64,000 nucleotides of DNA from Morchella semilibera (Eukaryota > Ascomycota > Pezizomycetes > Pezizales > Morchellaceae), in contig WBVU01000022.1 of the NCBI GenBank assembly GCA_009192285.1, positions 186,001-250,000 of the forward strand, in the 5' to 3' direction. Both the position numbers and the translations under genes were made by a program. The notes below the pieces were generated by a model, which saw only the letters and a list, made by a program, of their open reading frames with translations, ran no database searches and had not been told where the DNA came from. Below are positions 29,327 through 37,322 of this stretch, piece by piece. Position 1 is the first letter of the stretch; every line of letters begins with the position of its first letter.

Positions 29327-31874
29327 CTAGCCACCAAACACCATCTGAGCCTCCCTGCAGTGTCCACCATTCGGTCCCTCGGAGCCCACACACACTAGGC
29401 ACGCATCCACAATATTACTCAGGCACCCCTCAGTCGCTCCCAACACTGCCCAACCAATCGCTCCCGCAATCAAACCCACAATATAACCGTATGCGCTCCC
29501 GCCATTAATATCCCTAGCAGTTGTAACCCAAGCCCCTATCCCCATGCTCAGTGCTGTGATACCACGGGTGGCTGTCAAGAGCATCTTGCTGAACTTGTAT
29601 GCCGTCCGTGGCTGCTTGGTGGTTCCATATCCCGCTGTATCAATGAATCTCATGCCCGCTACGGCCCGGGACGAAGTGATCAAGGGCTGGGAGTGGATCG
29701 CGGCGTAGGTCAATGTCAGAGGGTTAGTGAGCGACGCTACTGGCGATGTTATGAAACTGTAGCAAAACATATGGATAAAGGCTGCAATGCGCCTTGGAGC
29801 CACCATTAACGGAACCCGAACGAGAAGCGCTACGAGGGAAGAGAAACATATTGTTCCAAAGAGAGTGGTGGTGGAGTGTGTAAACGCAGCCTGCATTATA
29901 TCCTTGGATGAAGCTTTCGGAATCTGGTGTCTGTGAAAGTACCATTGGGAAACCGTCGCAGCAGAAGTTGCCCTACAAAACATTAATATCACAGAAAAAA
30001 TACGACTAAAAACCGGCTTACCTCTGGATATTTGAGCAGATCCCCAAAGTCCACAAATACATCATAATGTAGTATGTAGCAAGCATCATCATCTTAGTAT
30101 CCAAATGCCACAATGGAACACCTATTCCCGTCAGCCCCGCGCAGCCATCTCCATTTCATAGCCACAAAAACTCACCTCCTACAATGTAATTCCCCATCCA
30201 AAACATTCTCGTAAACATGGCAACCCACACCCAAGTGAACACGCAAATGACGCCCAACGTTCCGAAACTCAAAAGTACCAGGGCTGCATTCTCTCCGAGG
30301 ATTTTACAAGCAAGCTGGATAATTCCTATGGCACGACCCAATGCATTCTTTCCCCTCCACGCAAACAAGATCCAGAACGCGGCCATGACCGCTGGGAAAA
30401 TACTGCCCCACCTCATGGCTTTATCTTGCGGCGCGTCGCCTTCCCATTTCCCGCGATACGACATGATGAGTGGGTACATGCTCAAAGCCACCAATATTAT
30501 GGCACTGCCCCAAGTATGAGGAAGAGCAACGGTTTTACAAATGCCCGGAGAAGGTACATCCACACTAAAGAAACCCCGATTGCAAGAAGTGTGTCTATCG
30601 TGAGAAGATGGATTGAGGACCCTATCGTACGATATATTGTATCGAGACCACCCAGCTTCAATTCTTCTGTGTGTAGCCACACTACGAAAGATGTGGTAAA
30701 TAAGCAAGTCATTAACACCATATATAAAGTACCCCATATTGCATCATGGGATGGGGGTTCTAGGGGCGGATATGCCACCTGTTGGGGGATCTAAAAGACA
30801 CTTAGTATAAACTTGGATCAATCAACCCAGGCTCAAAAAAGAAACAAGGACCATTGATGGAGAGAGTGCGAGGGGTAACTTACAATGCTCATATGAGGCC
30901 CACGCGGCTGGGTGGGCGAAGAGAGTCGCGGCATAAACGTAGTCTCTGGCTTTTTATCCGGCAGATTAGATTTTGGCGGCGGCGGTCTTCGGAACTGCTG
31001 AAATGCAGGCTCCTCTTCCTCATCATCATCCGACGGCATCTGAATGCAGATATCCCTCGGGGGCCGATCCGCACCATCGTCATCATCATCCTCCAACAAA
31101 GGCCGCCTTTCATAGCCACCAAACGGCCTTTGAACAGCCGACTCCACCATGTCCGAATGGTCGATACCCTCCGGCATCATTCCTAGCCGTACGCTATCAT
31201 CTAGTCCTATATCTACCATTCTCCCCTTTCCCTTAGCACCCTTTTCCGTCCCGTCGCTTCCAGCAGAGCCTGGTCTTGATGTCGACCTAACCAGCGATGA
31301 CCCAGCCGACCTTGAAGCTCTCCACGAGCTCTTGATGTTATTCGAGTTTCCCAGAATCGACAGCCTCGACTTCCCCTTCCCCCCGCTCCGCCGTAGCTCC
31401 TGCGTGCTCCCACCAGAATCGTCTTCATCATCCTCCTCCTGAACCGTCGCGTTCGAGGATGCATATGCCCCAAAATGCCGTCGGCTGCTCTTCAAGGCGT
31501 AGAAATCCTGCACTTCCTGTTCGTGCTCCTCATCCGGGGGCATAAAGTCGGCAGCCGAGTGGAATAGCGGTGCGGGGTTGTGCGGGTTATTTAGACGGCC
31601 CTCGCGTATGGCACTCATCCGAGTCTGGGACTGCGCCAGAAATCGGGAGGCATCTGGGAGCAGCACATCTTCTGGTTAGCTAGGGACTCTGGGGTATAGT
31701 AGCATGTGAAAAGGCAACGCAAAAGCCCGAATACGGGGACAGCAAGATACGATGGGTAAAATGGGGTGATGGGGTGGGGGGTGGGGAACGGATGAGCGGC
31801 GATAGCGATACTGGAGGGATAACATTTCTACAGATGGGTTATAGGAGGGGTCTGAGATTACATTCAGAAAACAT
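29327..31874 (-). CDS. pns1: CTL/Pns1-family choline-transporter-like membrane protein (one apparent frame break)
   Basis: Multi-spanning SLC44/CTL protein of the plasma membrane or endomembranes; fungal substrate unproven. Minus-strand exons: 31874-31862, 31668-30884, 30778-30176, 30121-30022 and 29972-29327. The 13-nt first exon joined to the second gives MFSEYVLLPDASRFLAQSQ, a start typical of fungal homologues. About 255 hydrophilic residues follow, rich in S/D/E/R with RRPLLEDDDDD. Then come around ten hydrophobic segments, including ALGRAIGIIQLACKILGENA and the family's C-terminal block YGYIVGLIAGAIGWAVLGATEG. At plus-strand 30500-30502 the frame shifts (LILGAVP|IILVALSMYP). Adding one base restores AVPIILVAL and gives 715 aa with all exon phases agreeing. 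Confidence 0.9.
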
Positions 31875-34800
31875 GATGGCGAGGCAGAGATGCCTTTGTG
31901 CCCCAGCGAAACAGAAGCTATCGGACGATGTACTACTCAGGCAGTGGCGTCAGCAGTCGAGAGTTGTTGATCTTTATCACTACTGATAAAAAAGAAAAAG
32001 TTGATGGATTATATTTTGTTGTTCGTTGATGGGACGGTGGTGGTTGTGGTAGTTGTGGTGGTCCGAACTCCCAAACGAGAACGAGAGGTTGAGAGAGGAA
32101 GATGAGGCGGCACTTGGTTGTGTTGTAGTTGAGACGGGGGGGGGCGCGGTGGGCCCAGGCGGGACACAGGACACAGGTAAGTGTATGTATGTAATAGGTG
32201 GGTGTGAAATGAAAGAGTCAACTCTCTCTGTCTGTCTGTCACAAGCAAGGAAGCACAAGCACAAGCACAACAAGCACAGGGGGTAAGCTCTCTCTATCAA
32301 CCAACACCCTTTGAACGATAGAGAATGGTTACTCTAAAAAGGCATTTCTCACCACCTACATATATGCCTGGCTGTGGGAAACTGGTGCCTTTGTAATAAT
32401 TATATGCAACACGAGATGATAAAATACATCTCTCTTTTGAATTTTTACAATAGTATCATGCACGCATACCTACTGGCTTGTTGGAACCTTTGGCCCGGGA
32501 GCAACTGACCGCCAAATGACAGTAAAGCGGCCATCCGCACCGACATCACGCTCCTCCCGCGGGAAAAAAAAAAAAGATCACTTCTTACCACAAGATCAGA
32601 CCGAGGAGGAAAGGGAAGGGGGGGGGTGTGATTGTGATTGTGGTTGTGGTTGTGGTTGTGGGGGTTACTAATATCGCCAAGCCACGTCTCCACCTGTCTC
32701 TGCAAGCTTTCAAGATCTCTGGGCTCTTCATATCGGCCACAGTTTGTGCTGCTTCGCTGGCTTGGAGATACAAGTTACAGATCTCCTACAAAATACATGT
32801 AATATCCAGTTGGGGAAAGTGTATCCTGTAGACGCACTCCTGGGGGTATGGTTATCCTGGGGGTACGACTAACTCCTCATAAATTTGAAAACCAAGTTCA
32901 ACAAAACAATGCTCTGGATGGGTGCTGACAATTAAGAAACGCTCTCCATATTCTTACAAAAAGTACCATCTGTTCTTAAGAATTTCGTTTAATTCATTAC
33001 TGAAATTGGGTGGTATTAGTCATACCCCCCGTTTAACCATACCCCCAGGAGCTCGTCTATCCACTCCTCCGTGGACAGCTACATACAGTGACAGAGTACA
33101 ATGTCAGAGTATGCACTCTCGCATTGCCATACTATGCTCTGGAGTACATGTAGTCATAACACACATACATGTATGCATCCGGATCTCACAGTTCCTGCCC
33201 CCTCCCTCTTGACTCTGTCTATTACTCATACATGGCACATCGAAGCAACTTGCAAGGGTAGCATGGGTCAGGTACGGCTCCCGGATGCAAGCCACGAAGC
33301 GAGTGCAGAACTAACTAGGCCCAAGCGAGGCTATTTTTGCCCTCAAGGACGATCTCCTAAGAAACATCAACTTGAGCCTCATGGTCCCCTAGCTATCTCT
33401 CTCAATCTAGATCTCATCAGAACATGTACAACCTATATACCATACCCGCCTAGACAACCAGCAACCGCAACGAGATCTCGAGAATCTTGCATAAAAGTAA
33501 ACTTCGAATCTCATCGTCAACACTGTACCGACATAGCTTCCCGTACAACCCTTCCTAGACTAATGTAAGGCAGCTTAGCTTCCTTCTCATCCCTGGGGAC
33601 CTGGATTCTGTAACCAGGCAGGGGCTCCAGCTATGATGCTAGAGCATCATACTACTCTAGATTATATTACTAAATCCACCATATGGCGCTGGCAGTACTT
33701 CCAAGTTCCAAGCAGGGCCCAGCTCTATAGGGAACCTGGATCGGAGTAGCAGCAAACAACAGTCAAGGGCCCTTTCCTCTTCTACATGCAGGATTAGTGG
33801 CTTGGCAAAGTTAGATGTTTCCCGCAGGGGCACGATAATTCGATTAGCTTTTCCAGCGTTGCACCAGGACCAGGTGCAGCAGAAACATCTCCATATGGGC
33901 CGGTTCGATGGCCGGTAAGGTACAAAAAACCAAAGAGGTGACAAGGACGGGATGAGCTGACGCATGCGGCTGTCTGCATCGACTACATACATGTAGTACA
34001 TGTAGTCGCTGGAGCCTTGGATCAGTCATATCGCATCACTCGATTTTTCTGGAAGGCGGGAATTAAACAAGCTCTGACTCACAATGGGTTTAAATGTTGC
34101 AGAGGGAGCCTGCCTTGTACGGCCTTGACTGCACATTGCGTAACTCTGTTTGTACTATATGGCAACATGTAAGCATGCGTGTATAAAGTATAGCTAAATA
34201 ACGTCTGGTGTTTGAGATTGTCTCCGGTAGTAATGCTTCCCTAGAAAACCCGGGTTCCACAATTCTGTAATGACTCAACTATCATTACCTAGATCACGTG
34301 CTCACCATCAGCCAGATCAGCAGACAGCAGAAAGTTTATAATACCAGCCTAGGTAAGGTACCGATATCTTTCAATGTATTTGGAATAGTAGCTCTCTGGG
34401 GAGGATTTCCTATAGCGGAAACATAATAATACGGGGGGTTATATATATCAGCATGGTGGCTGGTGAGTAAAAGTGAGTTTGGCCGCTAATAGGCACATGT
34501 ATCAATTAAGGTAGTATTGCGCACCAAGTTTCACGCCCTGCCATAGATTATGCCGAAGGCCAAGGCCCGCAACGAAGAGGTAGTAGACGACCGACACTGA
34601 TGTACTGGGCGCCCTCCAGACCCTGTATTTCGCAAAACAGCCGAGGCCCATATTTATTCATATGTGGTCACTCGTTTCCAAACAATAACAAGCCCACTCA
34701 CCCCTAGGCAGACCACAACCGTGCCAGTCAGCCAGCGTTTTTGAATACTTCAAGTTACACGCTGCTGCTGCTGCCACTATTATTACTAAGCATCGAAAGC

Positions 34801-35188: not shown

Positions 35189-36352
35189 TCAGGCCCGCAT
35201 ACAGGTAGCCAGCGCTTTCTCCACGCACCTTTTCCCGCCCTCGCCCTCCAGGCTCTCATCTCCGCCCTCTCCCACCTGCGTGCCCTCTTCTACAGCTGCC
35301 TCATAGACGGCGTTCAAGATCTCCTCATCAACTCTTACGTTATGCCTCACGAGCGCAGTAACACAGTTGCCTATCCTCGCAATCTCCCTCCGGGTAGCCG
35401 GGGAGATAGATTCATTAACCGAGGAGTAAATGGCCTCCGAAGCCTCCTCCTCTAACCTCGTGATACTAACCTCCTTTCCATCCTTTTTCCCATCTGCGCC
35501 TGTCACCCGCTTGGAGATCCAGATGTACCCGTTGATACCCAGGATCACATCGACCTCACCGCCGCCATTGGCCGCGGTCAGCGTAAGGATGTGGGATTTT
35601 GACCTCTGGATCCCCTTAGGGTCCACCTTGATGAAGTGGCCGTTCCGGAGTTTCCCGTACTTGAGGGATCTGGTGTGGAGCGATGCGGCGCCGTCCTGGA
35701 AGAGTGACTGGACTTCAGCGACAAGGAGGTCACCCTCAGAGAAGAAGGTCCGGATCTGGAGTTCGTCTGTGGAGGTACGTTTCCGGAGGATACCGCCTGG
35801 AAGATTGATCGACGAGAGGAGGAGGTGTGCTGTCTGCGTGCTGTTTATATCGACTTTCCAACGTTTCGATTGCACCTAATTCACCCACCATTCACATCAG
35901 CTCCCACCCCCACCTCTAACGAACCCCCCCTCTAGACCTTACTGCAGTGGTAGACAAACCTCCATGATCCTCCCCACAACCAAGTCTCCAATATCCGGGG
36001 TATACCGCGCCCTCAGCGGCTTGACACTCAGCAACTTATTCGTCTTCGTCACGGTCCCCGCTACCGTCGCGACAATGCTATTCCCCGTCTCCCCCTCTTC
36101 CGTCTCGGCCAGGTAGGTGCCATGCCCCCTCATCCACTGCGGGTCGCTCGTGACGACCTCTCCGGGCGTCACAATCGGCATTCTTCCGCCCAGTCCTCTC
36201 TTTATCGCCGACGAGCCGCCCATGGCGATGCCCCCCTCCATGTCATCCTCCTCCTCATCCTCCTCTTCTGAGTTAGAGTATTCGTTTGGCCGTGAGAATT
36301 CGGCGAATTTGTCTGTATGGGCCTCCCGCGGGGGTTGGATTGAGATTGGCAT
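35189..36352 (-). CDS. rrp4: exosome complex subunit Rrp4
   Basis: RNA-binding cap subunit of the nuclear/cytoplasmic RNA exosome, which feeds RNA to the 3'-5' nuclease for rRNA, snoRNA and mRNA processing and decay. Two exons (36352-35960 and 35875-35189) are joined by an 84-nt intron with a GTTTGT donor, making [14 protein letters not shown] in frame. The total of 359 aa is normal for Rrp4. The N-terminal region has [20 protein letters not shown], typical of the family. The S1 domain runs from [20 protein letters not shown] to [10 protein letters not shown], and the KH-like domain includes [28 protein letters not shown]. An acidic [10 protein letters not shown] insert lies near residue 30. 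It shares orientation with the PUF gene upstream. Confidence 0.94.
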
Positions 36353-37322
36353 GTTTGGGTTGCTGAGGTGTGTGGCGCTGCTCTTCGGAGGTCTCGTGTG
36401 TTTTTCTGCTATACTTTATCGGTGGATTGGATAGGGTTGCGGCTCTGTAAGTGACATGCGTAAATTTCAGCCTGGACACTGGCAGGATGATCTACGCCAA
36501 GCTATTAACCCTGGCCCTGTCGATGAGTGACGGGCTGTGATCCTGGCCCTAATAGTGGGGGTCAACAGAGGATTTAGTTTGGGTCTATAGAGGTTATTTT
36601 GCTGCCGTGCAAATATTCTTGGTCATTTAGGGAAAGGTCTCTATTCCTCCACTAAAAAGAGCAAATGACTAAACCCGCCACCCTCGGATCTATATACAGG
36701 AAAGCATCGCTATGATTTTATGGTAGCTAAAAGTTTAAAGACAAAAGGAAATCTCATAGTTACTAGAGTACAGGTAGATAGTTCAACAGTTAATACACCC
36801 CGTTTTAGAAAAACAAGAAAAAAAATACTAGAAGAAGGTGAGTATAATAAAAGAAGAGTTGAAGAGGTATTTTAAGCAAATATAGAACAGGGCTATTCCA
36901 CAGGTTCCGTCCACGGTGTAAAAAAAAGCTAGAAAATATTTTTGAGAAAAGAAAAAATGATAAGGAAAAAGACGAGTTAGTCTAAGCCAGAAGGGAAACA
37001 TGTAAGTATTGTACAAAATACCATAATCCGAGTCAGCAATCCTGCACACACACGTAATATACAGCCATAGCATGATTTTTCAACCATTTAACACCGCCGT
37101 ACTTACAACCACACCCAGAGAATTTTGCGGCCATAAGTCCATAAAGAGGAGTTACCCCCCATAATTCAACAAGAGCGACCCTCCACTCGCCCATATATTA
37201 TCGTTTCGTCGTATCGTGTTGCGTCTTTTCATAATCCCAGGAATGTGAAAGGAAAAGAGTGTATGAACAAGGTGTCATAAAGCAGATCATTACCCACATA
37301 TAAGTCATTAGAGGGAAAGAAA
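36353..37322. other. intergenic between rrp4 and the PUF gene
   Basis: Promoter side of rrp4 and 3' UTR side of the PUF gene. The part at 36780-37100 is AT-rich with AAAAA and TTTTT tracts. No gene or clear element is seen. Confidence 0.5.

Follow-up and report, generated by a model that had tools for sequence, protein, structure and literature searches.

The element at positions 32829-33059 of the 64,000-nucleotide stretch of Morchella semilibera DNA analysed here (the window; contig WBVU01000022.1, positions 186,001 to 250,000) is a miniature inverted-repeat transposable element (MITE), and it very probably depends for its movement on a Fot/pogo (Tc1/mariner) transposase supplied in trans. 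The family is new, its kind is already well known, and it appears to have spread recently, with five near-identical copies. The MITE reading put forward in the initial annotation was borne out: the copies are dispersed and keep the same ends, a TA is duplicated at the target, as empty sites show, and the end design is shared with transposase-bearing elements.

A perfect 18-bp terminal inverted repeat (TIR), with a further inverted repeat inside it on each side, had been described for this element. Positions 32837-32854 and 33034-33051 were complementary at 18/18 positions, and the inner repeats were also present. The extent initially given (32837-33051) was too short, both true ends lying 8 bp further out. 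The inverted repeat extends to TAGACG...CGTCTA and, because the copies share the 8 extra bases on each side, the limits were set at 32829-33059 (231 bp counting one TA per end, 227 bp without the TAs). The left TIR (32829-32872, plus strand) and the right TIR (33016-33059, minus strand) are each 44 bp long and two-tiered. They match at 38/44 positions, a value equalled by none of 200,000 random 231-bp draws from the window, the element itself excepted. The left arm contains an outer repeat, GGGGGTATGGTTA (32842-32854, plus strand), with its G-run at end positions 14-18, and an inner repeat, GGGGGTACGACTAA (32859-32872, plus strand), with its G-run at end positions 31-35; both are presumed transposase sites, judging from their sequence and from a register shared across the genome. 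The sequence of the right arm places the corresponding outer and inner repeats at 33034-33046 and 33016-33029, respectively (minus strand). Between the arms lies a non-coding interior (32873-33015).

The genes named as neighbours, pns1 and rrp4, were both recovered on their respective sides. The exons of RRP4 lie at 35195-36415 on the minus strand; the choline-transporter (Pns1-type) stretches, also on the minus strand, lie at 29333-30061 (above the Pfam cut-off) and 30159-30743 (below it). A (TGTGGT)n microsatellite of 5.8 copies occupies window positions 32627-32661, about 170 bp to the left of the MITE.

We have searched the whole genome (56.76 Mb in 23 contigs, of which C1 is the longest with 7,341,407 bases) with the MITE. 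The search returned 48 rows, which corresponded to 33 distinct places once the pieces of one copy were merged and the rows of an arm matching its own partner were removed; the places on C12 and C13 probably represent a single locus, as these contigs look like near-duplicates. The initial annotation had proposed looking for dispersed copies, and these were thus found genome-wide; a single-copy locus, which it had named as an argument against a MITE, was ruled out by the same 33 places. Two further queries gave weaker extra places on C7 and C2, and the search with the end pattern added others, such as C15:992089.

Five copies, on C22, C18, C16, C11 and C2, were 99-100% identical over the whole query, and over their full 230-232 bp these youngest copies differ from one another at 0 to 5 positions. 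When the flanks of each of the five were joined, they matched in full only their own places, with partial matches to other repeats. The flanks of the near-identical copies are thus mutually unrelated. This bears on whether the element spread passively, as a repeat carried along by segmental duplication or recombination. Such spreading might be suspected from the contig pairs C12/C13, C9/C10 and part of C21/C22, which are near-duplicate, so that some pairs of matches are probably one locus; however, the result with the joined flanks, the constant ends and the empty site found for copy L014 all argue against it, and we consider it extremely unlikely. In the C9/C10 and C12/C13 pairs, and in the first ~1 Mb of C21/C22, the same matches occur at nearly the same coordinates, as would be expected of duplicated haplotype contigs or of assembly redundancy; copy counts would be affected.

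Of the substitutions counted against the consensus of 23 copies, 135 were C>T/G>A, 236 were T>C/A>G and 155 were transversions. C>T/G>A changes were not dominant, so that no RIP signature was seen. The excess of T>C/A>G, the opposite of RIP, may merely reflect the weight of young copies on the consensus. Conservation among the copies differed little between arms and interior (0.85 vs. 0.81).

The target site was investigated at the ends of the copies. Of the 43 loci examined for ends, 38 reached a low minimum score, and in 14 each end matched at ≥13/18. TA was present at both ends in 9 of these 14 two-ended copies; the five without TA on both sides (L022, L023, L025, L053 and L064) are all diverged or rearranged. 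L017, L028 and L061, which fell below this end threshold because of insertions or deletions, also have TA at both ends. No duplication longer than TA was seen, by eye, outside the element ends of the copies examined.

Copy L014, on C6, is nested inside another repeat, and at least 43 rows matched across its joined flanks. Twelve of these regions were fetched and 11 were aligned (L098 was left out). All 11 aligned unoccupied copies of the host repeat had a single TA at the insertion point. The MITE therefore duplicates TA on insertion, and the target-site duplication that the initial annotation had left to be found by aligning flanks is TA. The whole window element with TA at both ends (32829-33059) was delimited by the constant ends across copies and by these empty sites; its left (32829-32830) and right (33058-33059) TA duplications are assigned with L014, a different copy, as the one compared with empty sites. 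Four paralogues cover the joined flanks of copy L009, but small insertions or deletions close to the junction make this case ambiguous, and the TA duplication is based on L014. In an empty-allele check, the C21 stretch L051 and the 1,215-bp locus of the C22 copy gave no match at E ≤ 1e-10.

The repeat that hosts L014, TACAGTATGAAAAAATGGGG...CTCTTTTTGGTACTGTA, is itself MITE-like, 175-187 bp long and present in high copy number. It gave at least 43 matching rows (a minimum, since 40 of the 263 candidates were scored; rows on near-duplicate contigs are counted), among them copies L089-L097, L099 and L100, for example C2:4749437-4749544 and flanks. The 11 copies inspected all fitted a TA-to-TA pattern, a pattern that itself demanded TA.

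The window element could alternatively be a structured RNA gene or a regulatory hairpin, the arms being kept by selection for pairing. Its strand folds far better than shuffled sequences (z -7.4, DNA parameters), a strong hairpin that is due to the inverted repeat. Rfam gave no match at E ≤ 1 within 32300-33600. The pairing of the arms was followed in 19 copies at 39 paired positions, with 82 gapped cells set aside: among the 659 ungapped cells, 513 were unchanged, 37 had changed to G-T, 106 were broken and only 3 were compensated. Compensatory changes across the arms had been named beforehand as evidence against a MITE; the arms instead decay uncompensated, and precise insertion at TA would be unexpected of an RNA gene. 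The Rfam result and the uncompensated changes led us to reject the structured-RNA reading, to which we give hardly any probability.

We have then searched for transposase-bearing relatives of the MITE, the search covering the Pfam family DDE_1 and the protein of a C21 element. The genome contained 96 DDE_1 matches. The MITE end pattern, with ≤3 mismatches allowed, gave 63 matches and 4 in controls, and two of its matches in opposite orientation, C21:486108 and C21:488302, flank one DDE_1 match. The element so delimited (C21:486108-488321) is 2,214 bp long, is identical on C22, and has 40-bp arms that are 95% alike. Three open stretches lie on one strand, and a spliced transposase of 616 aa was predicted from the sequence, with three exons and two GT-AG introns (62 and 71 bases). 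The predicted protein has a D112D35D spacing and matches DDE_1 at E 2e-24, suggesting that it likely belongs with the Fot/pogo transposases of Tc1/mariner. In the Pfam search its helix-turn-helix (HTH) matches were all below the cut-off, so that no DNA-binding domain was found above it, the N-terminal HTH_psq and HTH_Tnp_Tc5 (CENP-B type) domains of the Fot/pogo group included, and a PDB search with the last exon gave 15 matches, none below E 0.12 and none a transposase by name.

The ends of the C21 element match those of the MITE at 33/44 positions on the left and 34/44 on the right, whereas 20,000 shuffles averaged ~12 and reached at most 23 and 26. A second relative, at C1:4804486-4806596, is 2,111 bp long, with 50-bp arms that are 92% alike and the same two tiers. 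Over 114 residues, a stretch that contains one stop, it is 63% identical to the C21 protein, and its ends match those of the MITE at 28/44 and 29/44 positions. The end of C21 carries a third relative, 54% identical to the C21 protein and with one recognisable end of the two-tier type, which matched the MITE end at 24/44 positions, a value reached by 3 of 20,000 shuffles. In the DDE_1 loci L029-L048 the long inverted repeats, where present, are of other sequence. By sequence comparison, C21:486108-488321 is the nearest transposase-bearing relative among the elements examined. The suggestion that the window element is the non-autonomous partner of an unknown transposase could thus be kept in part: there are longer elements that combine this end design with a transposase, whereas the kind of transposase is no longer unknown, being most likely Fot/pogo (Tc1/mariner).

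The interior of the MITE was compared by BLAST with the transposase loci on C21, on C1 and at the end of C21, and no match was found at E ≤ 0.1; the best interior match, of 21 bp, was in the locus at the C21 end (E 0.47). The whole MITE likewise gave no match at E ≤ 1 against the 20 DDE_1 loci L029-L048. In the absence of such matches, simple deletion from any of the compared loci does not explain the MITE, and this candidate origin was rejected. An interior derived from an autonomous element is not required of all MITEs. As the ends of the C21 element and the MITE are ~75% alike, compared with 99-100% among the youngest MITEs, the true partner may be a lost, unsampled or more diverged copy.

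The absence of a link between the interior and a particular element would also be compatible with movement by another TA-targeting transposase outside Fot/pogo, such as one of the Tc1 type, and the TA duplication is common to other Tc1/mariner groups. We regard this as improbable, for the end sequence of the MITE and the 17-bp register of its tiers fit elements carrying a DDE_1 transposase (in a search that covered DDE_1 and the C21 protein). It is this match of end sequence and register to DDE_1-bearing elements that favours a Fot/pogo partner.

The two-tier end had been taken as a distinctive signature of this MITE; it turned out to be common to several families in the same genome. The G-runs occupy end positions 14-18 and 31-35 in the MITE, the C21 element and the C1 element alike. 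The pattern TAGAC-N8-GGGGGTA-N10-GGGGG, with ≤1 mismatch, had 65 matches in the genome compared with 2 for the reversed control, a few of the 65 looking like simple G-rich sequence. When the spacing was left free (2 to 24 bases), 42 matches were obtained compared with 2 for the reversed pattern; they represent 38 places, four being counted twice because of six-G runs. The 17-bp register was observed in 28 of these 38 places, which include both arms of MITE copies and near-duplicate contigs, and in 17 of 25 distinct strings. The doubled places were scored in the 17-bp register; the other reading for the C18 and C22 pair gives 26/38. In the GGGGGTA-type group, two or more transposase-bearing elements stand beside several families that are MITE-like. 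As far as sequence can tell, the two-tier end is a rule of the whole element group here and not the mark of one MITE, and the two tiers are best read as paired transposase-binding sites.

Other families with the fixed 17-bp two-tier end have starts such as TAGACCTCTTCAC, TAGACGCTCTCAC and TAGACTCACTTAT. Some two-tier families occur in short inverted pairs, C1:1114998 with C1:1115083 for example, and resemble additional MITE families.

These data suggest how the MITE would move. Two GGGGGTAYG-type sites, 17 bp apart, are present at each end. The transposase would bind these paired sites, bring the two MITE ends together and cut beside the TA, and the excised MITE would then insert at another TA. 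We infer both the movement itself and the identity of the partner, which would be the C21 transposase or a close relative of it.

MITEs related to such transposons have precedents. Emigrant, an Arabidopsis MITE, reportedly derives from a pogo-like transposon (Feschotte and Mouches); by description it is alike in being a pogo-like MITE and differs in its plant host. In Sclerotinia sclerotiorum, MITEs have been described that are related to Tc1-mariner elements of the DDE type, carry no genes and are presumed to rely on mobilisation in trans (PMC4188875). They resemble the window MITE in lacking genes and in their presumed mobilisation in trans, but measure 481-813 nt compared with its 231 bp (PMC4188875).

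Among fungal Fot transposases, 35 residues are described between the second and third D, with TIRs of 40-60 bp in most (PMC7386202, PMC7325037). The C21 relative agrees in its D35D spacing and in arms of similar length, and the TA duplication is as reported for FotC, FotD and many Fot-like elements (PMC7386202); in contrast, a TAA duplication is reported for most Fot elements (341/385, PMC7386202). The C21 transposase also differs in having no HTH domain above the Pfam cut-off, its placement in the group being made on DDE_1 and the D-35-D spacing. The closest published end design that we found, in the parts of the literature consulted, is that of DAHLIAE 1 and 2 of Verticillium dahliae, described with a TA duplication, a DDE_1 domain and a D110-112 D35D spacing (PMC3441728). 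Their TIRs hold two or three internal direct repeats of 15-17 bp, taken as transposase-binding sites, and the printed DAHLIAE2 repeat contains a run of C (PMC3441728). The likeness thus extends to the TA duplication, DDE_1, repeats within the ends and, in the C21 relative, D112 D35D; the ends themselves begin with ACGT there and with GAC (after TA) here.

The titles and abstract openings of the open-licence literature on MITEs with Fot1, pogo, Morchella or Pezizomycetes indicated no family like the window MITE among the matches listed, and those on Fot1 transposase binding likewise pointed to nothing of this family among the matches listed. In the genome text of Morchella crassipes, the main DNA elements are given as hAT-Ac and CMC-EnSpm, and a word search of its main text gave neither MITE nor TcMar (PMC7014384). 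For M. importuna, TcMar groups are listed, and a word search of the main text gave no MITE (PMC6164635).

The GGGGGTA-type families might all follow one code, with G-runs at 14-18 and 31-35, which would allow a small number of Fot/pogo transposases to cross-mobilise numerous MITE families; we put this forward tentatively, as a possibility that we hold somewhat doubtful. If it were true, the intervening sequence of the MITE families would be free to diverge. The fixed spacing of the paired sites offers a testable rule for transposase recognition. The finding is otherwise ordinary genome biology; to the morel genome it contributes a family of MITEs that has spread recently, with a plausible type of transposase to move it.
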